Source: Siniperca chuatsi
Taxonomy: Eukaryota > Chordata > Actinopteri > Centrarchiformes > Sinipercidae
Direction: 5' to 3'
Length of the DNA stretch: 64,000 nucleotides
Assembly: GCF_020085105.1 (NCBI RefSeq)
Contig: NC_058046.1
Location: forward strand, 29,689,175-29,753,174
Of the stretch, positions 3,327 through 45,539 are shown one piece after another. The stretch's first letter is position 1. Each line of letters opens with the position of its first letter. The notes below the pieces were generated by a model. It was not told the origin of the DNA. It saw nothing but the letters and a program-made list of their open reading frames with translations, and did no database searches. The translations under genes were made by a program, and so were the position numbers.

Positions 3327-3786
3327 AAACCTTTAGGAGGCGGTGTAGTCCCTCATTCGTCCAGGAGTGTTCTATCGTAGAAAAGGTTTCAGTCGTAGTC
3401 ATCTGGACACTGTTTTCAGAATCAAGACGTTTCGGCTCCCATCCGGAAGTCATTCTCAATTGTGAAAAAATGGAACGGGAACTCAGAAATTCAAGCTACT
3501 CTGTGTTACATAAGCCCTGCCCTCAGGAAGGAGTCTACCTGATTGGGCCATCATGGAAACAATTAGGTCAGTTTCTGGTGAAACTAGCTAATCAACAGAT
3601 ACTCAGGTAGACTCCTTCCTGAGGGCAGGGCTTACGTAACTCAGAGTAGCTTGAATTTCTGAGTTCCTGTTCCATTTTTTTCACAATTGTGAATGACTTC
3701 CGGATGGGAGCCGAAACGTCTTGATTCTGAAAACAGTGTCCAGATGACTACGACTGAAACCTCTTCTACGATAAACCTTTAGGAGG
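3327..3786. mobile_element. Foldback inverted-repeat element, copy 1, with 14-bp direct repeats
   Basis: The element body spans 3341-3772 and is flanked by the same 14 bp (AAACCTTTAGGAGG) at 3327-3340 and 3773-3786, which looks like a target-site duplication. Two arms of about 190 bp are reverse complements: the left arm includes ATCGTAGAAAAGGTTTCAG and the right arm ends CTGAAACCTCTTCTACGAT. They are separated by a short loop near 3540-3600. The left end carries about 30 extra unpaired bases beginning CGGTGTAGTCCCTC. It has no coding capacity, and a second copy lies at 21.8-22.35 kb. Confidence 0.75.
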
Positions 3787-16900: not shown

Positions 16901-18806
16901 TACTTTTGTTTGTGTACTTTTGTTGGTAGTTTTCTACATGTACTGTAAAGGGCAGCACACATCGGCGGCATATGACGCACGTCAATTGATGCGATGCTTT
17001 GTGAGGCCTCCGATGTGTGTCGTCCTTAAGGGTGAAAGCCTGAAAAACGCTGGGCAGGAAATAGTCTTTCATTGTCAGAGCTGCAGAAGTCAGTCAAGAA
17101 AAGATGTTGCGAGAGCGAATGAAAGAACTTACAGCACTGGGCAGGAGCTCTGGGTCCAGGCCATAACGAGACTCAGAGTTAGGAGACTGCAGAGAGAAAA
17201 TTTAACAACTTTAACACACGGACACTATTTTTGGTGAGATTTTGTTTTTCTTGACTCAGTATGATTGCAGCAATGTTAAGCCTAGAAAGACATCCTTTGA
17301 TTCTGAGGGACAAAAACCAGAAACCTCCCTTATATTGTGTTTTTTTAATTTTTTATTTTTTTTACATAGATTAAAATGCATTTTCAAACTCTTTAGCTCT
17401 GAGGCTAAATGGAAAATATCTCAAATTTGACAGAGTTACCATTAGTTAATTGTCATGCACTAAATTAACAAGAATTGTACCCAAAATTGCAAGGTAAATG
17501 GTCAGTGGCTGCTTTAACAGCTTTAAAGTTTAAAGGTGAATCTCTACTTGAGCTGAAACAATTACCTGGAGCCTGGGAAACTGTGATGAGCATTTTCTCT
17601 ATTTTGTGACAATAAAATCGATTTAATGAGAAACTAATTTGCAGATGTATCGATTAATCTCTACATTAAAGAGTTTTAATGCTGTTATTGTATTTTGCCC
17701 CACCTGTGGTGTGATGTTCCTGTCCTGTACAGCTGCATTAGGAACAAACTCGTTTATGGTTCCTGAGGAGAAAACAGAGGAGTTACACAATGGAGGACGA
17801 CGATGGAGGAAAGAGCCAGAATAGAGTATTATATTCTGAATGAAGTGGACTGCGGCACTTGTTTGAAAGAATAAAAGTTGTACTTTGATCAGTATAGTGG
17901 TGGTTTACACACTGGATGATGGGGCTAACCTGTGGTGCTCTATTGGACTGTAGAGCAACTGGTCTGCAGCTTAAGTTATTTATTTTCTGAATTTTACTGA
18001 CCACTGTTGCTCAACCTGGGCTTGGTCATCCTTCAATGACTTTGTGAGTAATTGAATTTAAATGATCAGCTCCTGTGGGAGGTTCTGCAGCATGCATGTA
18101 AGCACGTCATGTACACATTACAAATAAACCTACCTTTAGAGTCTGGTGAAAGTGTCCACTGAGGTTGCTGTTGGATAGGAGAGGAGGGCGGGGCATGATT
18201 GTGGGTGTATCCAACAGAGGACTCCACATTTGCCCTCTCAAATGCAGGCTGAGGTGTACACTGTGGACTCTGGTTTACACATTGTCCAAATGATGGAGAG
18301 CTGATGGGCAGATGTTTTTGATGTGGTGACTGAGGTCCATTTAGTGAATCCTGGTGTGTGTACGGAGGCTGGAAAGGAGAACATATTGCTTGGTAAGGGC
18401 TGTGAGGGGAGATAATTGGCATTTGCTGAGGCTTGCAAGGCTGCGTCCCTTTGTTCAGAAGAGGGAGAGAACATGGAGGTATATTTCTCCCATGGCTTGC
18501 AGCTGGAACTATGGATGAAGCATGAGCATCAGGAAAGATTCGCTGCACACTCTGATCAGCATTATTAGCATATATCGTGCTGAGATGAGTATTGTATGAT
18601 GAAAAGGTGGTGAGGTCGCCCTGGTTGGATGCCTGCAGGTGGTCATAGCAGGGTATCTGGTCAGAAGGCGAGCCCAGGTTGAGATGATGAAAGCTGGGCA
18701 GAGGGTTGCAGGGGGGTTCTTGAGGTGAAGCTGGGGACCAGCCGTTCTGGCCCGCCCACGGCTGACAGGGTGTCTGGCTCTGATTGGCTGTGGGGACGTC
18801 CATCAT
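4976..18806 (-). CDS. sec24: SEC24-like COPII cargo adaptor (SEC24C/D type), 20 coding exons
   Basis: COPII coat subunit that pairs with SEC23 on ER exit sites and binds cargo. Coding exons (minus): 18134-18806, 17704-17762, 17133-17186, 16527-16638, 15707-15834, 15334-15469, 12900-13009, 12051-12163, 11664-11855, 11021-11117, 10727-10831, 10235-10402, 9573-9669, 9341-9489, 8920-9058, 8108-8229, 7708-7887, 6676-6873, 6038-6127, 4976-5116. All junctions are GT-AG and in frame (1020 aa; human SEC24C/D are about 1030-1090). Order: Ser/Pro/Gln-rich N-terminus (1-244); LDPELLPS segment; zinc finger C357-x2-C360...C379-x2-C382; trunk opening LLLAIDVSASAL (about 425-650); beta-sandwich and helical parts; gelsolin-like region (about 880-975); C-terminus HLVEDKSPNGGASYADFLYH, the SEC24C/D ending. 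It is more diverged from mammalian SEC24s than expected for such a conserved family, so it may be a fish-specific paralogue. Exon borders are my inference. Confidence 0.93.
7901..7939. repeat. (CA)n microsatellite in a SEC24-like intron
   Basis: Perfect CA run 13 bp outside the acceptor of exon 7708-7887. On the coding strand it is a TG run between the intron body and the short tract before the acceptor. Confidence 0.9.
11977..12034. repeat. (TG)n microsatellite in a SEC24-like intron
   Basis: Slightly interrupted TG run that ends about 16 bp from the donor at 12050. On the coding strand it is a CA run near the 5' splice site, a position where CA repeats can bind hnRNP L and affect splicing. 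Confidence 0.85.
12388..12690. repeat. Dispersed AT-rich fish repeat (gattaat / caaaacccaaag type)
   Basis: This carries the recurrent words found in related stretches at about 14756-14920, 17553-17680, 26440-26700 and 42690-42870: TTAATCGATTAAT-like ends and a core of TTTTGTCCGACCAAC...CCCAAA...AATATTCAATTTAC. All are non-coding and decayed. They look like one old transposon family. Confidence 0.5.
13190..14340 (-). mobile_element. LINE (CR1/L2/Rex-like) relic in a SEC24-like intron, reverse transcriptase core deleted
   Basis: On the minus strand the 5' part (14047-14334) encodes NNKPWVTKDIKDAKRRAF and KIREAKEKYRRKLEEA. The next part (13671-14114) encodes MREVWSGMKSITGFRPTG and RANELNLFFSRF, the linker before the reverse transcriptase in fish LINEs of this clade. 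The catalytic RT core is absent. The sequence jumps to the C-terminal tail (HRKSFLPVATKLFNSS, about 13680-13730) and a long 3'UTR ending in the GAATCAGAATCAGAATCAG run at 13190-13210. The insertion lies between exons 12900-13009 and 15334-15469 and explains why this intron is long. It is a dead element with several frame breaks. Confidence 0.8.
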
Positions 18807-18853
18807 CCTCCATAACGATCACTGATAGGTGTGTTTCTCCTTGGAGGCGGGAT
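18807..18853 (-). other. SEC24-like 5'UTR part of coding exon 1 with overlapping upstream ATG
   Basis: An acceptor (CTCGCTAG) at 18854 precedes the start exon. An out-of-frame ATG at 18813, in good Kozak context (G at -3 and +4), opens a frame that overlaps the main start by seven bases and ends at 18661 (about 50 codons). The main ATG ATG starts at 18806. The chimeric gene at 30.5 kb keeps the same overlapping-ATG layout. Confidence 0.6.
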
Positions 18854-19337
18854 CTAGCGAGGCAACACAAACATGCAAAATTGATCATCGGGGTCGTGAT
18901 GTGATTCTCAGTTCTCTTCTGAGACGGGCCGAAATTTCTTCCTGACAGTGGTCACTGCAGATAGCTTAAGGCTACTTGCAACCAATTACAAGCAAAATGT
19001 ACATTTTTAGTGAGATTACATCTTTGAAAACGTCTGATCTTGTGACTATAGCAATTAGCTGTCATACCGAAACTAACGTTAGCTCATTACATGATCGAAA
19101 CGCATGATTATGAGAGCAAACTGTCGAAAAATTATTATGATTAGCGTATTTGTTTACCGTTGTTCTGTCGTTAGCTAGCTAACTAGTATAACAATATTAT
19201 CCCACACCACAAAGGTGCTCTTGTCTCGACATGAACACCAGACAGCCAGCAGCTTCACATAAACAGACAGGGTGAAATAAAAAGCTCCATCTGAGGAAAA
19301 CAATCTTATTTTAAGTAATAAAGATTAGAGTCGATAC

Positions 19338-19440
19338 CTTTGGACATCAACGGAAACGGGGGGCTTTGAGTGCCGCACTTGTCAATCAACGTTATAAACG
19401 TTAGCGTCTTCATTTCCCCCTCTGCGATGGAAGCTAAACA
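19338..19440 (-). promoter_or_regulatory. Likely 5'UTR exon and promoter of the SEC24-like gene
   Basis: On the minus strand a good donor (TCCAAAG followed by GTATCG at 19332-19337) ends a CpG-containing stretch. It sits about 480 bp upstream of the acceptor of the start exon, so it probably defines a non-coding first exon. The upper limit and transcription start are not determinable. Confidence 0.4.
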
Positions 19441-19768
19441 CTTCAGAGAGCTTAAAATGTATTATTTGCTCGTCATTGCGTTATATTAAAATAAAATCCC
19501 ATTATAAGAAACTGTTAAATGATTAACTTGGGGATTTCCCTCATAACACAACCGGTTACATTCATGAACCTGAGCCTTTACTGCAATGTCAAGCTAGCAA
19601 CGATCACGACAACGCATTTCCGCGTTTCCTTTCAAAGTAAAAGTCTTCGACACAAGAAATAAATAAATCGAATTCAAAAATACTTATTAAAAAGCTATAC
19701 ACTATCATAGTAGTGAATAAATTATACGGAGAGTTTATTCAACGAATTACATGTTAAATTGCTATGCT

Positions 19769-20908: not shown

Positions 20909-23060
20909 TTATAACTGCTGAAAATGTCCAGTACTCTGCTGTGGTTCCACTTGCCCAGGCCAGTGACTGTTTGTGGATGTAGCTTGGGAAGTTCCGCTTT
21001 GTCTTTTCAGGGCAGTGATCCTGTTTCTGACGTAGTCCTTTACACCTTTCCATGAACGGTACCTCAGTGCTTCTGGCTCAGCCTCAAGGCACTGAATGCA
21101 GTCATTTTTCTGAGGCACCTTGTGTCCTTGAATTAAAGGCATCATGTGTCTTTCAACAGCAAGAACTTCTTCTTCCTCCCATTTCTGTTTACCCTTAATT
21201 TGGGAGCCTGTGGGGTAAAAGGAAATGAGAAAATGTCTGCCATCACTAAAAAACTCCTAAAAATACCTCACACAGAGGTTTCTTAATCTTAAGGTTTAAC
21301 TGAATGTTTATTAAAAACAGATCTTATTGTCATCATGGCCACACTCTTACTGTTGTTCACATTGTTCTCCAAGACTTCAAACCCCAAAACCTATCATATA
21401 GAAAATATTTAAAATGTCCCCCCATATGTTGATCTGGATTGGAGATGCCAGATTAGCCTGTGAGGAGGAGCACCTGCAACATCTAAAAAGTGAGTTGGCA
21501 AGTCAAAAAAAAACAAAAACAAAACACTGTAGCTGAAACATTTATGCTTATAGCCATGACAGCTTTGTGAACTGGTGGCGTTTCTGCACTGTCTCTCCAT
21601 CCCTGAGATCAGTAGCGCTCTGGTTGAACAGCCCAATTCGTTAAAATGGGTGGCGAAAGGAAGCAGGCAGTGCCTCTGGTGTGTCTCCGGCTTAACTCTG
21701 TTGCTCCATTTCCTCATCCCTTACCCAGCCTTCTCCTCTAGGTTCTTCTTTATAAAACCCTAGATCTTTTCTAAAGACTACAGTTATTCAAAATAAGACG
21801 GTGTAGTCCCTCATTCGTCCAGGAGTGTTCTATCGTAGAAAAGGTTTCAGTCGTAGTCATCTGGACTGTTTTCAGAATCTAATAGTTCCCAAGTCATCTC
21901 AATTGTGAAAAAAATTGGACGGGAACTAGAAATTCAAGCTACTCTGTGTTACATAAACCCTGCCCTCAGGAGGAATCTGCCTGAGTATCTGTTCATCACT
22001 GTTTCACCTGAAACTGACCTAATAGTTTCAAGATGGCCCAGTGATCAGTAATCAGGCCTATTGTTCTCTGGCTGCATCTACTTCATCACTGTTACATTAC
22101 CTCTCAGGCACTTAACAGTGATCACTGGGCCATCTTGAAACTATTAGGTCAGTTTCAGGTGAAACTAGCTATTAACAGATACTCAGGCAGATTCCCTCCT
22201 GAGGGCAGGGTTTATGTAACACAGAGTAGCTTAAATTTCCAGTTCCCGTCCAATTTTTTCACAATTGAGAATGACTTCCGGATGGGAGCCGAAACGTCTT
22301 GATTCTGAAAACAGTGTCCAGATGACTACGACTGAAACCTTTTCTACTACAGTTATTGTTTATCTAACATAAGTTTGTATGACTGTCCATTACTGTAAAG
22401 AAGGGTTTTTTTTATTAAAGAAAATCTGATTTAAAAAAGAAATGGATAGAATGACTGTTAAATGATCAACTTGACTACCTTTTTTGCCTGAGTTGACAGA
22501 TTTTTCAGGTACAGTCATGTTGCCGTCTGTTGTTGCTCCATGTGCTTGTTCATGATGAAACTCTGCCGGTCCGTGGCATGCACTGGAATGCTCATTGTTA
22601 TCCCATGATGCAGTTTGTTGTCCTCTCTCTGTATTGAAGACAAAAAAAAAGTTCTCTTTTATATATACCATCTACCTATACACACATTTCCCACACTTAC
22701 ATTACTGCAGAAAAGCCAGAGTCTGATCCACAGTAATGTAATCATGGGCCGCTGTTTTCGTTCCACCAGCCATAAATTTGAATGACACACACCATTCAAT
22801 GCCAGCAGTTCATTCAGTGGCCTCTCAGGATACAAGTCACCCTCTCTGCTTTTCTCCCAGCAAGCTCTGTGTAACAACATCTGGCCCTGCAGTTTCTGTT
22901 TGAGTGTAGTCCTCAATTTTGAGTCATATTACATAAATAGATCACAGTACTAATATCTACCCACTTGCCTTGCAATACCAAATTCATTTTTAAAGTCCAA
23001 TCAACATGATCTTAAAAATTCTAGTCTTATTCCAGTGATGCTTTCCAATGAGCTACAAAT

Positions 23061-23096
<36 letters not shown>

Positions 23097-26000
23097 GGGG
23101 ATGGTATAACACAAATCAGACAACAAACTAGTGTGATTGGTCTTACTCCTTTGCTTTGCTTTGCTTGGCTTTGTGAAGTCTGAAACCCACTCGTTGCTGC
23201 TCATGGCTTTAGTTTTGGCCGATCAAGCTGCTTCCTTCTGTTGAGCGAAAAAGGGTTTGAACCTACGAATTGCCGTTTGCGGCTATATTCATTTATTTGT
23301 TCTTATTGACAAATATGCCAGTAGTGAGTGCCTTGACTGTTACAGTAATAATTATGGCCAATGAGCCACTGCTGAGTGTTAACATTTTTCTAAATAAATG
23401 ACAAATGTTATTTTCTACATTTCTGCTGTACCAAAAATGTACCGAAACTGTGACCCCAAAACTGTTGGGGAACTGTTACAGCCCTATTCTTTTGTGACTC
23501 AAGTACAGGTAACTCGTAAGGCTCTTCACACTACACTTAACCACAGACTAACCCCCTTTCTAAATCCCACATTTAATCCTAAACTATGTAAACCTTAACT
23601 CTGGCATTTACACTTGTGATGATTCTTACCATAAGAGTCCATTTCGACGTCATCCAGTGTCATGTTGCTGTCCTGTCGCAGGGTTTGGACTTGATTATTA
23701 GGGCCTAAAATTTGGTCGGCCTCATTTTCATCCAGGTTCATCATCTGTAGCATTGTTGCGTAATGCTTCCGGATCTTTGGCAATGTCAGTGTTTCAGGGT
23801 CTTTAGCTCCACATTTTCTGACATATTTTTGGATGCACTCTGACCCATTATAGGCAGACAGCGCATTTGGTCGGCCAAACAGGAAGGGATTCTTACTGGG
23901 GACTCCACATGTCTCGCGAATGTCTATGAGAAGCTCCATAGCCGACACGAATGATGGTTTTAGTAAAACGGGGACCATTCTCCCACACTTCCCTCGTATG
24001 TCAACTCTAGTGAAGAACCCACACATGGTTCTTTCCAAATCTGAGACAGATATGTCCATGCCAACATGCAGGTTTGATGTTTTCCGTGACATAAAAGCTG
24101 TTAGCTGCACTGACGATACCTCTCCGGCTCTTCTCCTGTTGAAAAGTATTGTTCGAGCGAGTATTACCTTGGCCAGAGCAGCGTAGTTTTCTGCAGAAGG
24201 GCTCTCTCTGAGTTTTTTCTCAGCAAGATGATGAACATTCTCCAAGTGGAAGTTCAGGCGCTTTACATCTTGAGCAAATGGCACCTTCTTTTCTGTGTTC
24301 AATTTTGTTTCTTTGAGTGTTGTTAATGCACCCGCAGAAATGAGCTTGTTCCATTTTTTCTGGTACACAGAGAGAAAGTTTCGTGCAGACTCTGCCAAAC
24401 TTTCATCACCACACTTCACTGCGTTATCCTCAACAATACTACAGGTCTTCTGTAGGTGGTAGCCAAGCTTGATGGCAAGGGAAGGAATGCTGTACGTTTT
24501 GTTTTCTGGATCGTAGCCTGCCAGGATGTTCACTGCAGACACCACATGTGGAAAGCTTGAGGGGAGAAAGAAGTCCTCCAGTTTCTTCAGAGGGGTTATC
24601 TTTTGAGCTTCGAGTACAAGTCTTGCTATCTGACGAAGGTTTTGTCTTATATAATCATGCTTCTTCGGATCGGATCCGTGCTTATTAAACAGAAGCTCAC
24701 CAAACTGCAAGATAACCTCGTCATCCAAGACAGCTTGTGTCACATCATCGTATGTCATCTGGGACAGAACGCTCTTAAAACCATCGGTTATGCCAAGGTC
24801 GTCTGAAGTTTCAAGCACACACCGCGATGCGATAAGCTTTCTTCCAATCTTTGATTCATTTTCATTCCTCACTTTCTCTGGGCACAACCTCATGTGCCTG
24901 TGCAACGCTTTCCTCACATAAAGACCTCGACAGTAAAGACAATGAAGAAAGTCTTTAGCTTTTCCAGTTTGGCTCGGCCTTTTTCGGACAGCAAGTTGGC
25001 CCTTCCCTGTTCTCAAGACTTTTTTATTATGAGCAAAGTTTCCTTGATTTGTTAGTCTATTCCATATCTTTTGTCTTTCTCTGGAATTTTTGGGATACTG
25101 AAAGGCAGCTGCAACCTCTGTTTTGTCACTGTGGACCGTCTCAAGATGTCGTGCCATTTTGGATATTGGCTTAGAGCAAAAAACACAATAATTCCTCCTG
25201 TCATAAACACGTTGTGCTTTAGAATTTGAACATGGCAACACTACAGTTTCAGAAGACTTCTTCCGATTAGTTGCACATGTCTTTTTTGGAGGACTGACAC
25301 GTTTGGCCTTAAAAGAAGAACTTCCCGATTTTGCCCTTTTTTTTCTTGGGAGAGAAGGTATTTTGTCTGTTGGGGTCGAGGGACTGCTGTGAATGGATTC
25401 ATCTGAAGAGCCCCTGTCAGGGTCATACCAGTCACCATCACTGTTAGGTAAGTAAGTAGGATCACTGTCATCCTCTGACTCGGCTGAGGTATTTTCTTTC
25501 TTCTGGAAAAAAAAAAAGAAAAAACAGTTGTATATGGAATTAAGGTGGGAAAATATTAGTATTTCTTTGTAATATTTTTAAACAAAGACACAATATCTAA
25601 ATTCTAACTTACCACAGCTAACTTGAGAAAGAGAGATTTTTAAAAAGATGTATAATTCATCTTCATTTGACTTATTATTGATTGAATTAAATAATTAATT
25701 CGGTAATGTTAGTTAAGTTTGAATTCAGGCACAGAGGAGTTTCATAAAGAACTATAAATGAGTATTTTTCATATCATACAAGTGCTCTGAAGCTATGGAA
25801 CTGGACACCAGGTTCAAAAGTTCAATGTTCATGTCATTAACGCTGAGATCACCATTCACAAATTGTTCTTGCTCTGCTAAAGTTTGAAGGCTAAACATTA
25901 AACTTATTCAAGTGTATTTAGTCATTTTATGTAATTTCACTTCATTCCACTTAAAGCTAATTCCACTGGCTACGAGTAACACAGAGTGAGAATGCATCTT

Positions 26001-29000
26001 CAATACTGTGGAAAATATACAGTATTTAGTATAAATTTAATTGGTATTTATAATTTTTATAAACCACTTTGAGTCAGTCGACTTTTGTTTGTGGTATTTC
26101 CAACAACACAGATAGACAAAGACAGTCAGTTAAAACTGCAGCGACAACAACTGTATTGACTTTTGACGCAGTGTAGAGCAATAGTGAATTATCTAGGAAA
26201 TAATTAAATAAATGTTGAACTATGTAGTAGTTAAATTTCAGAATACTTGCACAGTGATATCTGACAAAACTGTACACTAATCGCTTGAGATGAAATGTTA
26301 ATGTACCACTTAGCTTATTGTGTTGGATGGTATAAGCTGCATTTGATGTTTTTGGTCTTGTTGGTCAACAGTTCACTTGACCACTTCTGCCCAGTATTTA
26401 GGTCACTTACTGTTTGGCATATTTTGCCATATTTTTTTGCAACAAACCATTTTTAAATAACTGATGAATCTGCTAATTGTTTTCTTGATCAATGTATTGT
26501 TTGTCCTGTCAGAAAATAGTGATGTCATTAAATGTTTTGTTTTATCTGACTAACAGTCAAAACCCAAAGATTTTCAATTTGCTATCATATATTTTTGCTT
26601 GATCAATGACTGATTATTGATCAATTGACTGATAATTATTATTTTTTGACCGACAAGGTGATTAATTGACAAATCGTTTCGGCTCTAATGATGTTAATGG
26701 CACTGACCTAATATGAAATAAAGAGCTTGAGGAGCCCAGAAGCATTGCGGTTATGTGGTTACTTGGGCATACCACATAACCACCAAAAGAACAGCCAAAA
26801 CTGACAGTGGGCTATGCCCTAATATATAACATGGAAATATGAAACTGTTGATGAACGGCTTAGTACCAATACTAAAAACTATCATGTACTATTTGTTAAG
26901 GATTAAATAAACAAAACCAACAGAAAAAAATAGAGGTAACTACCACTGATTCTGCTGCTGACATTGGATCCTCTGGTGCATCCCAGTTCTCGCTCTGTTC
27001 ATCATAGGATGCAGGTGATAAACAATTCGCTGAAAGATGCGACTGTGACTGAAAAACAAAACAAACAGTGAAGACAAGATATTCTTGACTATCAATTGTA
27101 TTTAATAAAATTTGCTCTTTGGTATTATTTATTTAAAATAACTTATTTGCTGCTATCTGCCCATTGGTATGTTGTATATTCTGTATATTTTTATAGAGTG
27201 TTGTGCTATGTGAAGTGTATGTCATTTTGTTGTACCTTGTTAGAGGCCAAAGACAAATTTCCACTGAAGTGGACAATAAAGTCAATCAGTCAGTCAATCA
27301 ATTTACTAATAGCCTAAAATGTACAATTTAAAGCAGTCATTTATGCATAGTTAATAATTTGATGTGCAGCTACCTTTGACTTTTCTGTAAACAGCTGACT
27401 TTGCTGTGCATCACTGGTCTTATTTTGTTCACATTGGGACAATTTATCCATTGATGGAGACTAAAAAAAAAAAAAAAAAAAAAAAAGTCTATTATACTTT
27501 TGCATGTATTTTAGATATGAATTGTTGGACTTCTTTACAAATCAAACTGCAGCATCTAAAAAAACTTAACCTACCTGAATAGCTGTGTGTGGAGACTGCC
27601 CATCACTGCTGTCATCTGGAGGTATTGATTCCAGCTTAATGAGGGGGCAAAGTGAAGTCAACAGGGAGTTACTGTGTAGAATTATCTATTATATCTCTCT
27701 AAGAGGTATTTAAGGAATTTATAATTAAAAGTGATATATAATTTTTAAGGTTGTACCGGTTAACAACTATCTAAAGAAATAATATTGACCTTTTTCAATT
27801 AAAAAATTGCCTTAACACGCTTACTAGTTCATCCAACTCTGCCAGTTGTTGAAGCAGTTGTGCACGCTGATGTAAAAGTACCGAACGCCGTCTCTCATTG
27901 CTGGTCTGAAAGCAGATAAAAATTTTAAATAATGAAAAGGTATAATCTAAAGGGAATGATCTCTTATGAAACTCCACAGCTCTGTAACTCTACTGGAAAT
28001 ATCCACATGATGGTAGCTAATGGGAAACATTCATTTGGTAGATGCTATTGTTAAAAGTGACTTACAATGTGTACAATCAACCTCTGTAGGAACAAAACTA
28101 GTGCTAAACAAGCTAAATGTTATCAAACAGGTACAGAAAATGACTACACCTTAGTTTTATTTGTGAAGATATGTACAAAAATAGATCACCAAACAACAAA
28201 ACTTTCTTCTGTAATACGTTTTTGTGCTGTTAATGTCCTCACCGGTGGAGTAGTGTTCCCTTCTTGCGATGGCTCTTTGTTAAGATGAGCAGCTGCATCA
28301 GAGACAGACTCATTTACAGCTCCTGAGGAAAAGACAAGTCAGACAACGTAAGTGGAAATTGGAGGCAACATCCAACAGTACTGTAATCTGAACTGCACCA
28401 CTTGTTTAAACAGGTGACAAATCTGTAGTGTGCTGAAACGTTTTTTTTTTTTCTTTTTTGAATGATGAAGTGTTGCTGTTTCTCCAACAATCCTATCTGT
28501 TAGCTTCACCTAGGTTAAAGGTGGGGTATGCGATTCTGGACAAATCCAATACAACGACAAATACCATTGTATAGAGTGAAAAACGACACAGCAAAGTAAT
28601 GTAACTAACGTTAGCTAGATTGTGGGTTAGCAAACTGTGCTACAGTTGCAGAGCCAGAGAGGACGAGATGGTTTCCCCGAGCCAGCAATCCAGCTCCAGA
28701 CAGCGATACTCACAACTCTCCTGCTACTATAGCAAACATCACAACAACAGCATATCTTGGCAAACGAGAAAGTAAGCTGAATGTCCGTGGGCAAGTCATC
28801 TAACGTTACCTGACAGACAAATCATGGCTGCAATAGTGTTGTGTGGCTCTGTCCGAGCCACTCTGTTTGTTTCCCATTTACAGAGCCAGGGCTGTGTACA
28901 AACACCAACCAAAGATGTGTATTGGATTAGAATGACATACCCCACCTATATGCTAATACAGTCTACTGTAACAGTCCTGCAATAAATCCTACCTTAATGA

Positions 29001-30538
29001 TGGTTACAATGTTCAGTTTTTGTTTAAACTCTTTTAGAGAGGTGTTAATTCAACTTTAAGGTCATTTTGGAGGACGTAGTTTGTGGTGCATTGATATCAA
29101 TAAGAGTAGACTTGATTGGCCTGGTTCAAATTCTGTGCAGCAATAATAGACCACACCTTTAATTGATTGATTTTGGTCCTATAAACATTTGTAGGTTTAT
29201 TTGTCTCATCTGGTAGTAAGACCAGCAAGACCTTATTAAAAATATGTGAAAGAGAGCACTATTCAACACCTGAAACCTTCACATACAGCTGTTCATACTG
29301 CATCATAACTTATTACAACAATTTGTACTTCAGTTGAGTTTCATTTTCAGAGGGCCAAATATGGAAGCAAATAATGACCATAAATATCATAATATCATAA
29401 TCACTACTGAATTCTCAATGTTGAAATTTAAATATTGCTAAATTTATAGCACTTAAATATTTTACACTGAAAACCTAATTTATGTGCTATGAATTCCCTT
29501 CTTTTGTTGTTTTCAAGATGTGCAATTTGAAAAAAATTATTTCCAGTAAATATTTTTTTGGTTCACAAATCCAAATCTTCAGATATTCAAAAGATAGATT
29601 CAAGTGAAGTAAAAAAAAATCTGGTTGCTTAAATTAGTAAAGTCACATTCAGATGTGAATATCAAATTTGAACATCCAAGGCTAAGCAAAAAAAAAAACA
29701 TGTAAAGTACTAAACACTCTATGGTTTAGATAAATCAAACCCAACATGTTTAACCACACTGAAGAGGCTTTTCTCCTCCAATACGGACAGATGGATATGC
29801 CAGCGTACCACAGAGGTATTATAAATACAGCTTACCCCTGCAGTGTGATGAAGGTATCCACTGACGCTGCTCCTGAGAAGTGGATGAGGCATGGCTGTGA
29901 GTGTATCCAGCAACACCAGCAAATTCCACCTTTGCTCCTTCAAAAGTAGCTTGACATGTACTTACATGCTGTCCACATGATGGCAGGCTAATGGGCAGAT
30001 CTTGAAGTCCGTTTGGTAAACCCTGATTCGTTAATGGAGGTTGAAATGACGCTTTGTAAGGGTCGTGGGGTGAGAAAAGTGGTAGATGTTGGGGCCTACA
30101 AGGCTTTGGAGCTTGATTTGTTTGGCGAAGAGATGGTGGAGGTATGTTTTTTCCTTGGTTTGCAGTTAGCAGCATTGATGAAGTGTGAGGACTTTGCTGA
30201 GCAAAGGAAATAATGTGAGAGGCACTCGGGATAGCAGTGTTGGCAAACAGCGTGGTGGATGACGGATTGCTGCTAATGTGAGAGGCTTTGTGCAGGGCAG
30301 AGTGATGAGTGTTGTTTCTGGATGATAAGGTGCTGAGGTCGCTCATACAGCTCTGATTGGACGCCTGCAAGTGGTCATAGGAGGGTCTCTGGTCAGAAGA
30401 TGAGCCCAGGCTGAGATGCTGAGAGCTGGGCAGTGGGTTGAGGAGGGGTCCTTGAGTTAAAGTTGTGGACCAGCTATTCTGATCCGCCCACAACTGACAG
30501 GGTATGCGGCTCTTATTTGCTGTCAGGTTGTCCATCAT
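20909..30538 (-). CDS. Chimeric gene: SEC24-like N-terminal exons fused to a Crypton-type tyrosine-recombinase protein
   Basis: Coding exons (minus): 29836-30538, 28243-28322, 27825-27905, 27575-27634, 27374-27460, 26944-27048, 23630-25502, 22479-22628, 20909-21207. All introns are GT-AG and phases match: 1145 aa. Residues 1-261 are duplicates of exons 1-2 of the SEC24-like gene. Four short exons follow; the first has a helix-forming RRRSVLLHQRAQLLQQLAEL. The large exon has an acidic/basic leader (373-459), C2H2 finger C478-x2-C481-x9-H491-x4-H496, a second finger (HCLYCRGLY...HRHMRLC), and a recombinase core with box-I Arg (NRRRAGEVSS, about 828-830), candidate catalytic Lys (RGKCGR, 877) and box-II IRKHYAT (949-955). 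Where the family I recall has a GH...HxxY segment, this protein has ILGPNNQVQTLRQ, so the nucleophilic Tyr appears lost. The C-terminus (1047-1145) holds a SANT/Myb-like segment (KWEEEEVLAVERHM, SWKGVKDYVRNRI). This suggests a domesticated DNA-binding protein; its role is unknown. Confidence 0.8.
21778..22357. mobile_element. Foldback inverted-repeat element, copy 2, inside a chimeric-gene intron
   Basis: Same family as 3341-3772: it starts CGGTGTAGTCCCTCATTCG at 21799 and ends in the TACGACTGAAACCTTTTCTA arm at 22346. The arms are longer here because the interior keeps AGTGATCACTGGGCCATCTT and its complement. An 11-bp direct repeat, CTACAGTTATT, lies at 21778-21788 and 22347-22357, but the left copy is 10 bp away from the element start. 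The element sits between coding exons 20909-21207 and 22479-22628. Confidence 0.7.
23063..23094. repeat. Poly(A) run of 32
   Basis: A homopolymer A tract on the plus strand within an intron of the chimeric gene. No retroelement body is recognisable beside it. Confidence 0.85.
26440..26700. repeat. Dispersed AT-rich fish repeat in a chimeric-gene intron
   Basis: Ends in ATTAATTGACAAATCGTTTCGGCTCTA and contains TTTTATCTGACTAACAGTCAAAACCCAAAG. It belongs to the family listed at 12388-12690. Non-coding. Confidence 0.5.
28519..28947. mobile_element. MITE with terminal inverted repeats in a chimeric-gene intron
   Basis: Left end AGGTGGGGTATGCGATTCTGG and right end CATTCTAATCC-type complement (ATGACATACCCCACCT) form imperfect terminal inverted repeats of about 22 bp, around 429 bp apart. 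There is no coding capacity. The corresponding SEC24-like intron lacks this insert, so it postdates the exon duplication. Confidence 0.6.
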
Positions 30539-30583
30539 TCTCCATAACCATCAGAGTTTGTTGCCTGGAGTCTCTTTTATTTC
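30539..30583 (-). other. 5'UTR part of the chimeric gene's first coding exon, short uORF
   Basis: The acceptor TCTTCTAG at 30584 and the intron sequence before it (AATCACATTTTGACCC..., CAATTGTGCATGTT) match the corresponding SEC24-like intron end (18854-18905). As in that gene, an out-of-frame ATGG lies seven bases before the main ATGATGG. Here its frame closes after only nine codons. Confidence 0.55.
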
Positions 30584-31617
30584 CTAGAAGACAAAACAAC
30601 ATGCACAATTGTTAGTTAGGGTCAAAATGTGATTGTATTTCTCTTTTAATTATAGGCCTCAATCTCAAAACATCCATCTTAATTTATTGTGGTTTGCCTT
30701 CTACCTTGTGCAACATATCACAGGTGACATGACAGAGAAAAAATTGATAGGATTCAGCTGGAAGGAATCTTATAGGCAGACAAGCTGAAAATACAAATGA
30801 TGGACACTGTAGAATATCATAAAATGATCAACAAATAAAAACACATATTACAAATAACCTGCATCATAGCATTATACCCAGCCCTAATTTATAATACATA
30901 CATTTTCAAAATGAAAACTAGCCTAATACAGGTATCAGAAAGAAAAAAGGATTGAACAAGAAACTGTTTTACTCAATGTTAAAATTTCAGAACATCATAA
31001 CAGTTTAAGACAAAGTTTCCTCAGTTTTCAGCAGATGAATGTGAAAACATCCTTTCAGTTTCAAACTCTGCACATACATCATTCTGCCCAATTAGGGTCA
31101 AACATCCAAGTGAAATGACATTCATGTAAAATACATTTTTGAGTGGATGGGGGGCTTTCACATCTTTGTTAAAGAAATAAGACATAGAAATTAAACTGGT
31201 TTTAGTAGTTTGTTATTAAAGGGTCAGTTCATCCAAATGTCAAAACACACATTTCCTCACTTACCTCTTGTAGTACCTAGCCATGCAGACAGTTTGTTTG
31301 TTTGTTTTTTCCTGGTTTTAAGATACCAATCTCTAAGATTTCTGCCTCCACACACCATCACAGTGGCTGTGAATGGAATTTGAAAAATTCACCAGCACTT
31401 TATAGAAACGTTCGCTGATTAATCTAGAGAAATAGCACATTTCATCAATGTTGGCAGTTTGTTCTTGTAAACTAGAAGATTAACGTTAGGTTTAGGACTG
31501 CCGTTGGTAATAAAATGTGTTTTTTAGTAGTTTGGGTGAACAGACCCTTGAAGCTATAAACACCCAAAGTCGTACTTTGTCATCTGTAGGATCCAAAATC
31601 TTTACAGTTATACTTAC

Positions 31618-31900
31618 AGCGGGGAATGGGTAGCTAAATCGTGGTAAACATCGGCAAAATGTAGCTTAGCAGTGTGGTTTCCCATTTCTTTAGTTATTTA
31701 GCTAACCCAGCTACATTGATTAGCTGTTAGCTGTGAAATTCCGGAAGTATACGCAGAACTAACAACGACTCCAAAATGACCAGGCTGAAAAAAACTTATC
31801 TGCAGAAAAAACATCTGATTTTTAGTCAAAATGTTTTAATACGGGTACCATATCTGTCAACATCACAGGAGATGGCGGCCGTTTGTTTACTTCACGGCTC
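31618..31900 (-). promoter_or_regulatory. Probable 5'UTR exon and promoter of the chimeric gene
   Basis: A strong donor (GCT followed by GTAAGT at 31612-31617, minus strand) ends a likely non-coding first exon 1.0 kb upstream of the start exon, mirroring the SEC24-like gene. Just upstream lie an ETS-type CCGGAAGT (31741-31748) and a YY1-type GATGGCGGCC (31871-31880), both typical of TATA-less housekeeping promoters. The transcription start is not determinable. Confidence 0.4.
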
Positions 31901-36867: not shown

Positions 36868-38292
36868 TCACAGAGAAATCTCGGTCTGACAGATTTTGAT
36901 ATCAGTGGTTTTGGCATCAGACCTGAAAACATAGAAATAAGGGAAGAGTTTCTCAGTGAAAGTGTCTCTGTGAGTGTAGATGTGAGTCATGTCTTCAGGG
37001 TTGTAGAAGGACACCTCCCCCCTGTCATAGTCCAGCTGGACTCTGATCCTCTGGAGACTCTTCTTCACTGTGACAGTCTCACTAAGACCATTAGTGTATT
37101 TTCCACTGTCATGTGACAAACACCAGATTCCATATTCTGGTGAGTCACATATCTCTCCCTTCCTGTCGACTGACTCTTTAACCAAACCCACATTCCAGAC
37201 AGGATGGTCTCCCACCTCCACCTCCCAGCTGTGTTTCCCTGAGCTGAAGCCCTCAGAGCCCAGAACAGTGGCATACATTGTGTGTCTCTCTGGATTGGCA
37301 GGAAGCTGCTGTTTGGTGTCTACATTTCTCACACTGGTCAGATCATCAGACAGATGGAGCCAAGGGTTTGCAGTGTTTGGGTCCAGAATGACAGGGCTGA
37401 AGTGGACCTTGTCCTTCATCTTCTCCCAGACTCTGAAGGACAGGTTGCCCAGGTGTTTGGCCACATCTATCAGCGCTCCTGAGACCAGCTGTGGCTCTGA
37501 CAGTGAGCACTGGACTCTGGCTCTGGTCTGAGTGGCTTTATAACTGCTGAGGAATGGCACGTTGTGTTTCTGCAGGTCTTCTTCAACAGCAGAGATGCTG
37601 TCTGACAGAGAGGAGATCTGCTCCTGAATCATCTTCATCTCCCTGCTGATAGTCTTCCCCTTCTGCTCCTCTTCCTCCCTCAGAGCTGCCAGTCTGGACT
37701 CCTCTTCCTCTTTCAGGAACTGGTGGAGCTTGTTGAACTCTGCTCTGATCTGCTGCTCTGTGGACAACAGCTGCTTCTTGGAGTGTTGAATCACTTCATT
37801 ATATGTTTTCTCCACTTGTTTGAATTTGTCCCTCTTGTCCTGTAGGGACTCTAAGTCAGATTTCAGCTGGTCCTTCAGGTCACTGACTGCTTGTTCTATA
37901 GGAACCACCTTGTGACTCTGGTGGAGAGAAAACTCACAGACAGGACACACAGCTCTCTGCTCGTCCTCACAGAACAATTTAGGCTCTTCTTGATGTTTAC
38001 TACACACCACCTTCACCTTCTTCTCTCCTTTTTCTGTCTCAGATGATCCAGCTTTCTGTCTCTCAGCAAAGGAGTCAGCCAGTTCCTTCAGTGCAAAGTC
38101 CACTATCAGTTTATCTTTTGAGGATTTCCTTTTACAGATGGGACAGTTTTTGTTTTTAGCTTGTTCCCAGAATTTGTGCAGGCAGCTTGAACAGAATCTG
38201 TGGTTGTAGCTCAGAGACACAGGATCTCTGAAAGTCTCTGAACACACATGGCAGTTCAGGAAACTTTCAAGAAGAGCAACTTTCTCAGCCAT
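36868..38292 (-). CDS. TRIM E3 ligase-like protein, copy A (RING zinc ligand Cys29 replaced by Tyr)
   Basis: Intronless 474-codon frame in classical TRIM order: RING (14-53), B-box 2 (about 97-135, CSKH...CEDEQRAVCPVC...HQSH), coiled coil (about 140-245) and PRY-SPRY (about 285-474, with LDPNTANPWL, GKHSWEVEVG and LDYDRGEVSFYNP). It resembles fish TRIM35/A33-like proteins; E3 ligases of this group act in antiviral and inflammatory signalling. RING ligands are C14, C17, position 29, H31, C34, C37, C50 and C53. Position 29 is Tyr (TAC, 38206-38208), but Cys in copies B and C. The RING is therefore probably misfolded and ligase activity doubtful, although the frame is intact. Copy B at 43960 is nearly identical in the coiled coil and differs in a SPRY loop. 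An ISRE-like motif lies 150 bp upstream. Confidence 0.92.
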   Translation of the reverse strand: MAEKVALLESFLNCHVCSETFRDPVSLSYNHRFCSSCLHKFWEQAKNKNCPICKRKSSKDKLIVDFALKELADSFAERQKAGSSETEKGEKKVKVVCSKHQEEPKLFCEDEQRAVCPVCEFSLHQSHKVVPIEQAVSDLKDQLKSDLESLQDKRDKFKQVEKTYNEVIQHSKKQLLSTEQQIRAEFNKLHQFLKEEEESRLAALREEEEQKGKTISREMKMIQEQISSLSDSISAVEEDLQKHNVPFLSSYKATQTRARVQCSLSEPQLVSGALIDVAKHLGNLSFRVWEKMKDKVHFSPVILDPNTANPWLHLSDDLTSVRNVDTKQQLPANPERHTMYATVLGSEGFSSGKHSWEVEVGDHPVWNVGLVKESVDRKGEICDSPEYGIWCLSHDSGKYTNGLSETVTVKKSLQRIRVQLDYDRGEVSFYNPEDMTHIYTHRDTFTEKLFPYFYVFRSDAKTTDIKICQTEISL

Positions 38293-38441
38293 TTGTTATT
38301 GAAGTTATCTTTCAATAGCAAGACTCACCAAGTTACTGTCTCTTCCCTTGATTGCTTCAAATAGTCCAAACGTGTGTTTTTCAGCAGAGATCTCACACCC
38401 TGTAATGGCGTCTCAGCTCTTTTCAACAATGTCAAAATCTA

Positions 38442-39560: not shown

Positions 39561-39917
39561 TGTAAAGATCCTAAAGTGTTGCGAAATTTAGCAGCAAGCA
39601 TGAAGAACTCACCTCGTCTCATGTGACTGAATTTATTCTGTTATTTAAAGCAGCAGCGATAGTAGAAGCCATGCTGACCCTCTGCTCTCTGGGGGACGTT
39701 TTATGAATGGCAGGTTCAGGAGAGAAAGTTCAACCCTCTTCAAATTTCTCTTCTCTCATATCCTCTATTTGACGTTTTTAACAGAACATTTACATTAACA
39801 ATAGAAGGAAATGAACAGTAAACATGAACACATTCCTGATCAGAGTGGTACATTTAAAGTCACCCTGTTACCATTGCACCTTCTCCTTGTTTTTATGATT
39901 CCAGCTTCACCTCAGAG

Positions 39918-41481
39918 ATGATCCAGTTGAGACTGGTGACACTGGTTGCACTGCTCTGCCCTCTTCCCAGTGCTGAAGGAGGGAAAGTCCTTGTTGTCCC
40001 TGTGGATGGAAGCCACTGGGTCAACATGAAGGTCCTCATCCAGGAGCTCCATTCCAGAGGTCACAACATCACAGTGATCCAGCCCAAAACCAGCTGGTAC
40101 ATCAAAGCAGAGTCCCATCACTACCAGTCAGTCACCCTCAATGTTGTTACTGGATTTGATGTGAACAACATTAATTACTTCACAACCAGAATGCTGCAGC
40201 TCCGGTGTGAGTTCCACACTTCACCATCAGCGTATTTCAAAGCTGGAGAGGAGCTTATGATAATGATGCATCATGCTCACAAAGCTGTGGTTAATAAAAT
40301 GCAAGATATGTTTGAAGATGCTAAACTGATGCAGTTCTTTCAAGATGCCAAGTACAATGTTGTCCTGACAGACCCCTGCTTCGGTGGAGGGGTTCTTCTG
40401 GCTCATCGGTTGGGTCTGCCTCTGGTCTTCAATGTACGATGGACAATCTTGGCAGATGGACATCACACAGTCGCCACCTCACCGCTCTCCCGTGTTTCCC
40501 ATACCAGGCACTGAACTGACTGATAAGATGACTTTTTGGCAAAGGGTGAAAAATGTTTCATTTACCTTAATAGTACTTAATAACCAGGTGATAATAAAAG
40601 AGCCTCACTACACACCATTTGTCCAACGTCACTTTGGTCCCGACGTCCACTATGATGAGCTCGATTAGGCAGCAGATATTTGGTTGATGAGAACTGACTT
40701 TACCTTTGAGTTCCCTCGTGCCACCATGCCCAACGTTGTCTACATGGGCGGGTTTCTCTGTAAACGCTCCAAGCTGCTTCCTCAACATCTGGAGGACTTT
40801 GTCCAGAGCTCTGCAGAGCATGGGGTCATTATTATGAGCTTGGGGACCTTTCTGAGGAAATAGCTGAACATGTGGCTGCTGCTTTTGCCCAGTTACCGCA
40901 GAAGGTCATCTGGAGGCATACTGGGAAGAGACCGTGTACGCTGGGCAACAACACATTGCCGCTGGACTGGCTGCCCCAAAATGCCCTCTTAGGACACCCA
41001 AAGACCAGAGTGTTTGTGGCCCACGGAAGCACAAACGGACTTCAAGAGGCCATCTACCACAGAGTTCCCATCGTCGGCCTTCCTCTGATGTTTGACCAGG
41101 ATGATAACCTGTTCGGGATGAGAGCGAGGGGCGTTGCCAAAGTGCTGCACATTGAACACAGACAATATCCTGGAGGCGGTGAAGGCGGTGCTTTATGAGG
41201 CGTCCTACAGGGAGAACGTGCAGGAGCTCTCCAGGCTGCACAGAGACCAGCCCCTGAAGCCTTTGGACCGAGCCATGTTCTGGATCGAGTTTGTCACGAG
41301 ACACAAGGGAGCTGCTCACTTAAACAGTGACTCCTACAAGATGTCCAGGATTCAGTACTACTCCATTGATGTAATCACACTGTTGCTTGTGTCAGTCATG
41401 ATGATGTCACTGATTTACATTTTAACAGTGAAATGTTTGCGGTGCAAAGTGTGTGGTGGGAGGAAGGAAAAACTGGACTAA
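39918..41481 (+). pseudogene. Broken UDP-glucuronosyltransferase (UGT5-like), intronless
   Basis: UGTs are ER enzymes that transfer glucuronate from UDP-glucuronate to small lipophilic molecules. The frame opens with signal peptide MIQLRLVTLVALLCPLPSAE, then the N-terminal acceptor domain (KVLVVPVDGSHWVNMKVLIQ). The C-terminal half keeps most of the UGT signature (WLPQNALLGHPK, FVAHGSTNGLQEAIYHRVP, DQDDN) and ends with a membrane anchor (ITLLLVSVMMMSLIYILTV) and a basic tail (RKEKLD). It is disrupted by frameshifts near 40470, 40840 and 41155 and a stop at 40665-40667 (TAG after YDELD). Signature residues are also altered (HGS for HGG, HRVP for HGVP). With no introns it matches a single-exon UGT5-type gene. 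It lies between the two TRIM copies. Confidence 0.88.
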
Positions 41482-43959: not shown

Positions 43960-45387
43960 TCACAGAGAAATCTCGGTCTGACAGATTTTGATATCAGTGG
44001 TTTTGGCATCACCAGACCTGAAAACAAAAAAATAAGGGAAGAGTTTCTCAGTGAAAGTGTCTCTGTGAGTGTAGATGTGAGTCATGTCTTCAGGGTTGTA
44101 GAAGGACACCTCCCCCCTGTCATAGTCCAGCTGGACTCTGATCCTCTGGAGACTCTTCTTCACTGTGACAGTCTTACCAAGAACATTAGTGTATTTTCCA
44201 CTGTTATGTAATAAACACCAGACTCCATATTTTGGTGAGACACGTATCTCCCCCTTCCTGTCGACTGACTCTTTAACCAAACCCACATTCCAGACAGGAT
44301 GGTCTCCCACCTCCACCTCCCAGCTGTGTTTCCCTGAGCTGAAGCCCTCAGAGCCCAGAACAGTGGCATACTTTGTGTTTCTCTCTGGATTGTCAGGAAG
44401 CTGCTGTTTGGTGTCTACATTTCTCACACTGGTCAGATCATCAGACAGATGGAGCCAGGGGCCTGCAGTGTTTGGGTCCAGAATGACAGGACTGAAGTGG
44501 ACCTTGTCCTTCATCTTCTCCCAGACTCTGAAGGACAGGTTGCCCAGGTGTTTGGCCACATCTATCAGCGCTCCTGAGACCAGCTGTGGCTCTGACAGTG
44601 AGCGCTGGACTCTGGCTCTGGTCTGAGTGGCTTTATAACTGCTGAGGAATGGCACGTTGTGTTTCTGCAGGTCTTCTTCAACAGCAGAGATGCTGTCTGA
44701 CAGAGAGGAGATCTGCTCCTGAATCATCTTCATCTCCCTGCTGATAGTCTTCCCCTTCTGCTCCTCTTCCTCCCTCAGAGCTGCCAGTCTGGACTCCTCT
44801 TCCTCTTTCAGGAACTGGTGGAGCTTGTTGAACTCTGCTCTGATCTGCTGCTCTGTGGACAACAGCTGCTTCTTGGAGTGTTGAATCACTTCATTATATG
44901 TTTTCTCCACTTGTTTGAATTTGTCCCTCTTGTCCTGTAGAGACTCTAAGTCAGATTTCAGCTGGTCCTTCAGGTCACTGACTGCTTGTTCTATAGGAAC
45001 CACCTTGTGACTCTGGTGGAGAGAAAACTCACAGACAGGACACACAGCTCTCTGCTCGTCCTCACAGAACAATTTAGGCTCTTCTTGATGTTTACTACAC
45101 ACCACCTCCACCTTCTTCTCTCCTTTTTCTGTCTCAGATGATCCAGCTTTCTGTCTCTCAGCAAAGGAGTCAGCCAGTTCCTTCAGTGCAAAGTCCACTG
45201 TCAGGTTATCTTTTGAGGATTTCCTTTTACAGATGGGACAGTTTTTGTTTTTAGCTTGTTCCCAGAATTTGTGCAGGCAGCTTGAACAGAATCTGTGGTT
45301 GCAGCTCAGAGACACAGGATCTCTGAAAGTCTCTGAACACACATGGCAGTTCAGGAAACTTTCAAGAAGAGCGGTTTTCTCAGCCAT
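43960..45387 (-). CDS. TRIM E3 ligase-like protein, copy B (intact RING)
   Basis: Intronless 475-codon frame with RING (C14, C17, C29, H31, C34, C37, C50, C53 all present), B-box 2, coiled coil and PRY-SPRY. It is probably a cytoplasmic E3 ubiquitin ligase of the TRIM35/A33-like fish group, in which the SPRY domain binds the target. Against copy A (36868-38292), residues about 96-262 are identical with only scattered silent changes. Roughly ten replacements cluster in the SPRY, notably GEIRVSPKYGVWCLLHNSGK here versus GEICDSPEYGIWCLSHDSGK in A. That pattern fits recent duplication or gene conversion plus diversification of a binding loop. An extra Gly near the C-terminus (RSGDAK) explains the one-residue length difference. 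The 5' flank is shared with copy A for about 190 bp. Confidence 0.95.
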   Translation of the reverse strand: MAEKTALLESFLNCHVCSETFRDPVSLSCNHRFCSSCLHKFWEQAKNKNCPICKRKSSKDNLTVDFALKELADSFAERQKAGSSETEKGEKKVEVVCSKHQEEPKLFCEDEQRAVCPVCEFSLHQSHKVVPIEQAVSDLKDQLKSDLESLQDKRDKFKQVEKTYNEVIQHSKKQLLSTEQQIRAEFNKLHQFLKEEEESRLAALREEEEQKGKTISREMKMIQEQISSLSDSISAVEEDLQKHNVPFLSSYKATQTRARVQRSLSEPQLVSGALIDVAKHLGNLSFRVWEKMKDKVHFSPVILDPNTAGPWLHLSDDLTSVRNVDTKQQLPDNPERNTKYATVLGSEGFSSGKHSWEVEVGDHPVWNVGLVKESVDRKGEIRVSPKYGVWCLLHNSGKYTNVLGKTVTVKKSLQRIRVQLDYDRGEVSFYNPEDMTHIYTHRDTFTEKLFPYFFVFRSGDAKTTDIKICQTEISL

Positions 45388-45539
45388 TTGTTATTGAAGT
45401 TATCTTTCAATAGCAAGACTCACCAAGTTACTGTCTCTTCCCTTGATTGCTTCAAATAGTCCAAATGTGTGTTTTTCAGCAGAGATCTCACACCCTGTAA
45501 TGGCGTCTCAGCTCTTTCTCTCAACAATGTCAAAATCTA

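Follow-up and report, generated by a model that had tools for sequence, protein, structure and literature searches.

A putative domesticated fusion of SEC24-related exons with a tyrosine-recombinase-like gene in Siniperca chuatsi

A gene of Siniperca chuatsi joins two coding exons related to SEC24, a component of the COPII coat, in frame with a tyrosine-recombinase-like body that has lost part of its catalytic residues. On the strength of its sequence we consider it a likely domesticated host–recombinase fusion, catalytically dead and equipped with a SEC24 N-terminus, and assign this reading a probability of about 0.6. The window, i.e., the whole 64,000-nucleotide stretch of DNA that was analysed, corresponds to C5:29689175-29753174 of the 718.8-Mb, 65-contig genome used for the 719-Mb genome searches. 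A putatively dead recombinase with the head of a COPII gene would lie beside its donor gene in a genome that keeps multi-copy relatives, about 99% identical and with catalytic motifs, and the locus lends itself to testing how host–recombinase genes originate and whether they influence mobile relatives.

Exon structure and the SEC24-related head

The fusion gene runs on the minus strand from 30538 to 20909, where nine exons form a single frame of 1145 codons with one terminal stop (Table 1). This chain had been proposed in the original prediction and was borne out, as all exons were recovered at their predicted places, all eight introns carry GT-AG borders, and the entry phases (0,1,0,0,0,0,0,1,1) chain. 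Splice sites were scored with an approximate matrix built on consensus values, and each score was expressed as a percentile among all GT or AG dinucleotides of the same strand. By this measure, 15 of the 16 sites of the fusion gene lie above the 91st percentile, the exception being the exon 6 donor (84th), and the 17 sites scored for comparison in the neighbouring SEC24-like gene span percentiles 92.6-100. Searches with exons 3-6 against the 719-Mb genome gave four matches, all of them the window itself. Among the matches listed for the loci of 20 relatives none was a convincing homologue of these exons, the best (e34 against L027, E 0.037) falling within L027's own recombinase frame; because homologues are absent, the coding status of exons 3-6 rests on their splice sites and frame.

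Table 1. Coordinates of the fusion gene, its SEC24-like neighbour, catalytic positions and family 1 elements (window positions unless a contig is given)
Feature	Position	Strand	Remarks and basis
Exon 1	29836..30538	-	start codon, Ser/Pro/Gln-rich head; SEC24-like exon 1 copy; end phase 1
Exon 2	28243..28322	-	SEC24-like exon 2 copy; end phase 0
Exon 3	27825..27905	-	27 codons; both ends phase 0; no genome match elsewhere
Exon 4	27575..27634	-	20 codons
Exon 5	27374..27460	-	29 codons
Exon 6	26944..27048	-	35 codons; donor weakest in the model
Exon 7	23630..25502	-	begins acidic; holds two finger-like Cys/His motifs and the tyrosine-recombinase-like domain
Exon 8	22479..22628	-	splice model and sites
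Exon 9	20909..21207	-	family-wide C-terminal domain ("SANT-like" is a by-eye label) and stop codon
Finger-like motif 1 (CxxC...H.....H)	25128..25199	-	sequence reading; no Pfam match
Finger-like motif 2 (CxxC...H...C)	24882..24944	-	sequence reading; no Pfam match
Putative Arg I (FNRRRAGE), kept	24129..24131	-	alignment A1; assigned by eye
Putative Arg II (KIRKHYAT), kept	23769..23771	-	alignment A1; family register with XerC/D HxLR
His III position, Pro here (LGHD in family)	23700..23702	-	subsequent Tyr segment missing
5' flank collinear with SEC24-like 5' flank	30589..30645	-	adjoins a putative acceptor of the 5'UTR, the exon beginning at 30583
Candidate promoter	31600..31899	-	CpG o/e 0.85 against window median 0.31; other window stretches equal or higher
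SEC24-like coding exon 1, other copy	18134..18806	-	tblastn match, Pfam of gene
SEC24-like coding exon 2, other copy	17704..17762	-	alignment match
Family 1 element	C2:30756619-30779588		inverted 22-bp end motifs
Family 1 element	C7:12512623-12534827		inverted 22-bp end motifs
Family 1 element	C9:6729268-6748464		inverted 22-bp end motifs
Family 1 element	C20:458931-479650		inverted 22-bp end motifs
Family 1 element	C23:11858431-11882138		inverted 22-bp end motifs

Exons 1 and 2 had been predicted to be duplicates of the first two coding exons of a SEC24-like gene, which lies on the same strand with its start 11.7 kb from the fusion gene. Our comparison agrees with this, since 127 of 229 aligned residues are identical, the junction phases of both genes are equal (1 at E1|E2 and 0 at E2|E3), and tblastn recovers the head pair at E 8e-45 (E 7e-37 in the genome search). 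The SEC24 identity of the neighbour was likewise confirmed by Pfam (Sec23_trunk, E 1e-36; Sec23_BS, E 3e-17); its zinc-finger and helical domains score slightly below their cut-offs, leaving two of the four domains above, and judging by these matches the gene is a divergent SEC24 paralogue. At the DNA level, a blastn match between SEC24-like 17840-17730 and fusion 28392-28290 (E 1e-4) spans exon 2 and about 70 bases of intron 1, and introns 1 and 2 taken alone are no more similar between the two genes than shuffles. Residues 1-261 of the fusion protein contain 16.5% Ser, 10% Pro, and 8.4% Gln.

The likeness to SEC24 is limited to exons 1-2, and Pfam found no Sec23/24 zinc finger, trunk, sandwich or helical domain in the 1145-aa fusion protein. 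Relics of SEC24 exon 3 and beyond were not found in the fusion gene, and the six matches to these exons outside the SEC24-like locus all have E >= 2.5. One short match (SEC24-like 12556-12509 against fusion 26584-26537; score 44, where the best of 20 shuffles reached 34; E 0.001) was considered as an exon relic and rejected, as it is intronic in both genes and reads as a shared repeat. The prediction of a SEC24-related head in frame with a recombinase-like body is supported at the DNA level, where host exons are found in frame with a mobile-element domain, as in host–transposase fusions.

Exon 1 has only two significant places in the 719-Mb genome, namely these two genes; with a cut-off of E 10, two further matches were listed, at E 3.5 and 8.4, which makes four in all. 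It has no significant match to other SEC24-type genes genome-wide, where the Sec23 trunk family accounts for 23 matched exons at seven loci (C3, C5, C8, C14, C15, C20, and C22). A transfer in the reverse direction, by which the recombinase gene supplied the SEC24 paralogue with its first exons, could explain this isolation, as could the fast divergence that is typical of disordered protein heads. We consider such a reversal improbable: SEC24 proteins generally carry a disordered head ahead of their core, the exon 1 head is missing from every other recombinase-family locus in the genome, and CpG-rich sequence surrounds the SEC24-like copy (o/e 0.82-1.33 at 18800-19699). We infer that the exons moved from SEC24 to the recombinase gene.

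The duplication also reaches upstream of the start codon. A 59-base block is collinear in the two genes (fusion 30645-30589, SEC24-like 18918-18860); with a local score of 39, where the best of 100 shuffles reached 37, it is by itself barely above chance, and it is followed by a putative 5'UTR acceptor placed 45 and 47 nt ahead of the ATG in the two genes. Because the flank is collinear and the acceptor and exons 1-2 match, the duplicated segment should extend at least from the end of the 5'UTR intron through exon 2. Farther than about 107 nt before the ATG, nothing above shuffles was detected. The original prediction had the recombinase gene capturing promoter and 5'UTR along with the N-terminus; the collinear block suggests that part of the 5'UTR intron was copied. 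Capture of the promoter is not supported, as homology was detected no farther upstream and no similarity to the SEC24-like promoter was detected in the stretch at 31600-31899, a candidate for the fusion gene's own promoter.

The recombinase-like domain and its catalytic residues

Exon 7 matches 68 stretches genome-wide that make up a tyrosine-recombinase-like family, and a close second copy is absent: the best-scoring match outside the window is 41% identical, with short stretches of up to 50%. Exon 9 is matched 32 times in the genome (E up to 1), and since several of them trail an exon 7 relative by about 2-7 kb on the same strand, the recombinase and C-terminal domains belong together in this family. 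The labels "zinc finger" and "SANT-like" of the original prediction hold insofar as the motifs are legible by eye, but Pfam at E up to 1 has no match on the finger-like motifs or on the C-terminal domain of exon 9.

The recombinase exon was assigned to no family by Pfam (best DUF7734, E 0.047, below cut-off), nor was it named by NCBIfam, PHROGs or PDB sequences, the last also searched with a seven-row profile, and scans of IMG/VR and GTDB contigs did not find a relative. A profile of seven family members was then compared by hhalign with XerC/D (E 0.022, probability about 2%), where the register of the two agrees at the Lys hairpin, Arg II, His, and Tyr, and with five E. coli recombinases jointly (E 0.025), against E 0.051-0.76 for 13 unrelated E. 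coli proteins, which entered as single sequences and not as profiles. Taken singly, the five recombinases gave E 0.19-0.69, inside the control range, the catalytic region being aligned by XerC only. The predicted "Crypton-type" nature has the motif register in its favour but no library match, and this register, together with RRRAGE read by eye as Arg I, gives fair but not strong support for reading the 403-aa domain of exon 7 as a putative tyrosine recombinase.

After IRKHYAT the fusion gene continues to ILGPNNQV and then lacks the approximately 27 residues that carry the Tyr in its relatives. Families 1 and 2 as well as loci L030 and L040 read GHD followed by Tyr-Arg, with several family 1 copies frameshifted between the motifs, while two genes on C17 and one on C12 have parts of their catalytic motifs changed likewise. 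Compared with a competent tyrosine recombinase, Arg I and Arg II are thus present in putative form, and His III (LGH) and the nucleophilic Tyr are absent. Judging by these residues, the recombinase of the fusion gene is catalytically dead, having lost both the His and the Tyr-bearing segment, a loss that the original prediction had missed and that is added here.

Mobile relatives and their possible N-terminal partners

Five relatives, members of family 1, are bounded by complete pairs of inverted 22-bp end motifs 19-24 kb apart. The motif has 15 genome matches at <=1 mismatch, compared with one for the reversed-pattern control. Where compared, the C7 and C2 copies share 99% identity as far as both ends; in these two, whose targets were read, both ends abut TG repeats. 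In all five elements, the recombinase exon is preceded on its own strand, at a distance of about 6.5-11.5 kb, by SET exons (those of the C23 and C9 copies contain a stop), and exon 9 relatives lie close to the other element end (E 6e-7 for C2 and C9; 0.066 for C7, C20, and C23). CryptonV are recombinase DNA transposons, some families of which are reported to insert in microsatellites (PMC8869645), and by target, as read in the two copies with TG repeats, the five elements appear CryptonV-like. Set beside that description, family 1 elements measure 19-24 kb, over which the exons for the SET, recombinase, and C-terminal parts are distributed.

The window gene differs from CryptonV and family 1 in having no family 1 element ends: the end motif has no match in the window at up to 3 mismatches, which argues that the gene is not a family 1 element. 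A decaying or dead transposon copy that looks intact by chance would agree with the dead catalytic site and with a family rich in mobile and broken copies, and the ends of its own lineage may differ from those of family 1. We nevertheless regard it as very improbable, as no close copy exists (the best-scoring match is 41% identical) and the whole frame is open, whereas several relatives that are about 99% identical to one another already bear stops.

SET exons occur in other members of the family, too. The two C17 genes (L025 and L026, C17:6466000-6481900) carry them 2-3 kb upstream of the recombinase exon, with a C17 SET exon confirmed by Pfam (PF00856, E 2.5e-10), and L042 (C3:15508000-15517900) has one upstream by tblastx; 12 SET matches were listed genome-wide. 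We take the SET-plus-recombinase arrangement of these three genes to be in the style of SETMAR. A second multi-copy recombinase family comprises L032, L033, L038, L039, L041, L043, and L044, with long blocks about 95-99% and some 85-92% identical over the 10-kb segments examined. DUF3504 exons were noticed at C17:6483132-6484539 and C12:23612876-23615463, within about 10 kb and 55 kb of recombinase-family genes, possibly an old shared neighbourhood.

With SET exons upstream in the elements and a SEC24 head in the window gene, N-terminal partners may vary across the family. Going further, we tentatively suggest, with more doubt than confidence, a recombinase capture in which the family repeatedly swapped its N-terminal partner (SET exons in the large elements and the two tandem C17 genes, SEC24 exons in the window gene) and the SEC24-headed copy, turned into a chromatin protein, may restrain or co-opt those relatives that are still mobile. 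If true, this would be the counterpart of transposase capture.

Coding constraint, proposed origin and known fusions

For exons 1-2 of the two genes, in a codon alignment with whole-codon gaps by construction, dN is 0.28 and dS 0.71, giving a dN/dS of 0.39 (bootstrap 0.27-0.58); restricted to the first 62 columns, the ratio is 0.65. As one neutral and one fully constrained branch would yield a pair value of 0.5, inside the bootstrap interval, this ratio alone is compatible with a neutral fusion branch. In simulations of neutral drift, the 1145-codon frame stayed free of stops in 0 of 1000 runs at K=0.18 substitutions per site, which is half of the Jukes-Cantor distance between the two genes over exons 1-2, and in 2 of 1000 at K=0.05, and free drift could hence hardly have left it open. 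The 234 codons of exon 1 stayed stop-free in 15 of 1000 runs at K=0.18 and in none of 1000 at K=0.355, and in a simpler simulation 224 codons stayed open in 47 of 2000.

These low exon 1 counts speak against two neighbouring genes, in which exons 1-2 would be what remains of the 5' part of a tandem SEC24 duplicate and a recombinase gene with its own promoter would initiate within exons 5-7. Such an arrangement would fit the first in-frame Met past exon 2, which lies in exon 5, the CpG-poor exon 1 region (o/e 0.14 at 30400-30699), a pair dN/dS compatible with relaxed constraint on one branch, and the missing relics of SEC24 exon 3 and beyond outside the SEC24-like locus, as after a truncating event; yet the E1 donor, E2 acceptor, and E2 donor rank at >= 99.5th percentile in the approximate matrix, and exon 3 lacks its own start codon, while its phase-0 acceptor is compatible with exon 2. 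On balance, we hold two separate genes to be unlikely. In a ten-row tree the fusion-gene recombinase forms its own long branch outside the multi-copy families, although the tree does not fix its position, and the dead site, open frame, and long branch are better explained by an old host gene than by a recent transposon.

For the domesticated fusion that we favour, the following origin is proposed. A segment of the SEC24 paralogue comprising its first two coding exons and a portion of the 5'UTR intron would have been duplicated beside the exons of a Crypton-like tyrosine-recombinase gene, or would have taken these exons up, and the phase-0 donor of SEC24 exon 2 would splice in vivo onto exon 3 at its acceptor, likewise of phase 0. 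In the recombinase, the His and the Tyr-bearing segment were lost, and the frame would have remained under coding constraint. The product may be a non-cutting DNA- or chromatin-binding protein, in which the finger-like motifs, recombinase, and C-terminal domains would bind DNA and the SEC24-derived head would serve as a protein-contact or regulatory arm. We surmise that the gene probably encodes a new DNA-binding protein, and this claim to function rests on the frame, the phases, and the lack of decay.

Most fusions of host genes with mobile-element enzymes described so far involve DDE transposases. In CSB-PGBD3, host 5' exons are spliced to a mobile-element enzyme, and the resulting fusion binds DNA and carries an N-terminal arm from the host (PMC3459987). 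The window gene resembles it in joining host exons, and with them a host N-terminal arm, to such an enzyme, here at the level of DNA. It differs in that the enzyme is a tyrosine recombinase-like domain instead of a piggyBac transposase, and in that the SEC24 gene is a separate neighbour, whereas the PGBD3 element lies inside its host gene, where both proteins are made.

The closest known domesticated recombinases are the DUF3504 genes KCTD1, KIAA1958, ZMYM2/3/4, QRICH1, and WOC, which PMC3212892 describes as Crypton-derived host genes that all lack the catalytic Tyr and have lost Arg II; in KCTD1 isoform b, the DUF3504 domain is joined to a BTB/POZ domain. The window gene would share with them the fate of a recombinase without catalytic Tyr turned host gene. 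By Pfam it stands outside this group, since the fusion protein has no DUF3504 (PF12012) match at E up to 1 and none of the 37 genome matches at this threshold falls in the window; besides, it keeps the putative Arg II and has a SEC24-related head plus a C-terminal domain of its own family. Cryptons are also covered in PMC9341512 and PMC5753468. No comparable gene was found among the titles listed in one open-access library on Cryptons, domestication, transposase capture, and SEC24 chimeras. As read from DNA, the window gene would belong to the known kind of host–transposase fusions, here with a tyrosine recombinase-like domain.

Several other features were observed in the window. A repeat in intron 8 (21796-22347) matches with its two halves 3769-3544 (91%) and 3542-3338 (86%), and the repeat at 21796-22347 and 3338-3769 looks like a fold-back element. 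Intron 1 contains an insert-like stretch (28520-28948) with inverted ends around GGTGGGGTATG, recognized by eye. Two highly similar long frames at 36868-38295 and 43960-45390 resemble RING/B-box/SPRY (TRIM-type) genes by eye, and between them, at 39858-41481, lie frames that were likewise named by eye as UDP-glucuronosyltransferase-like.
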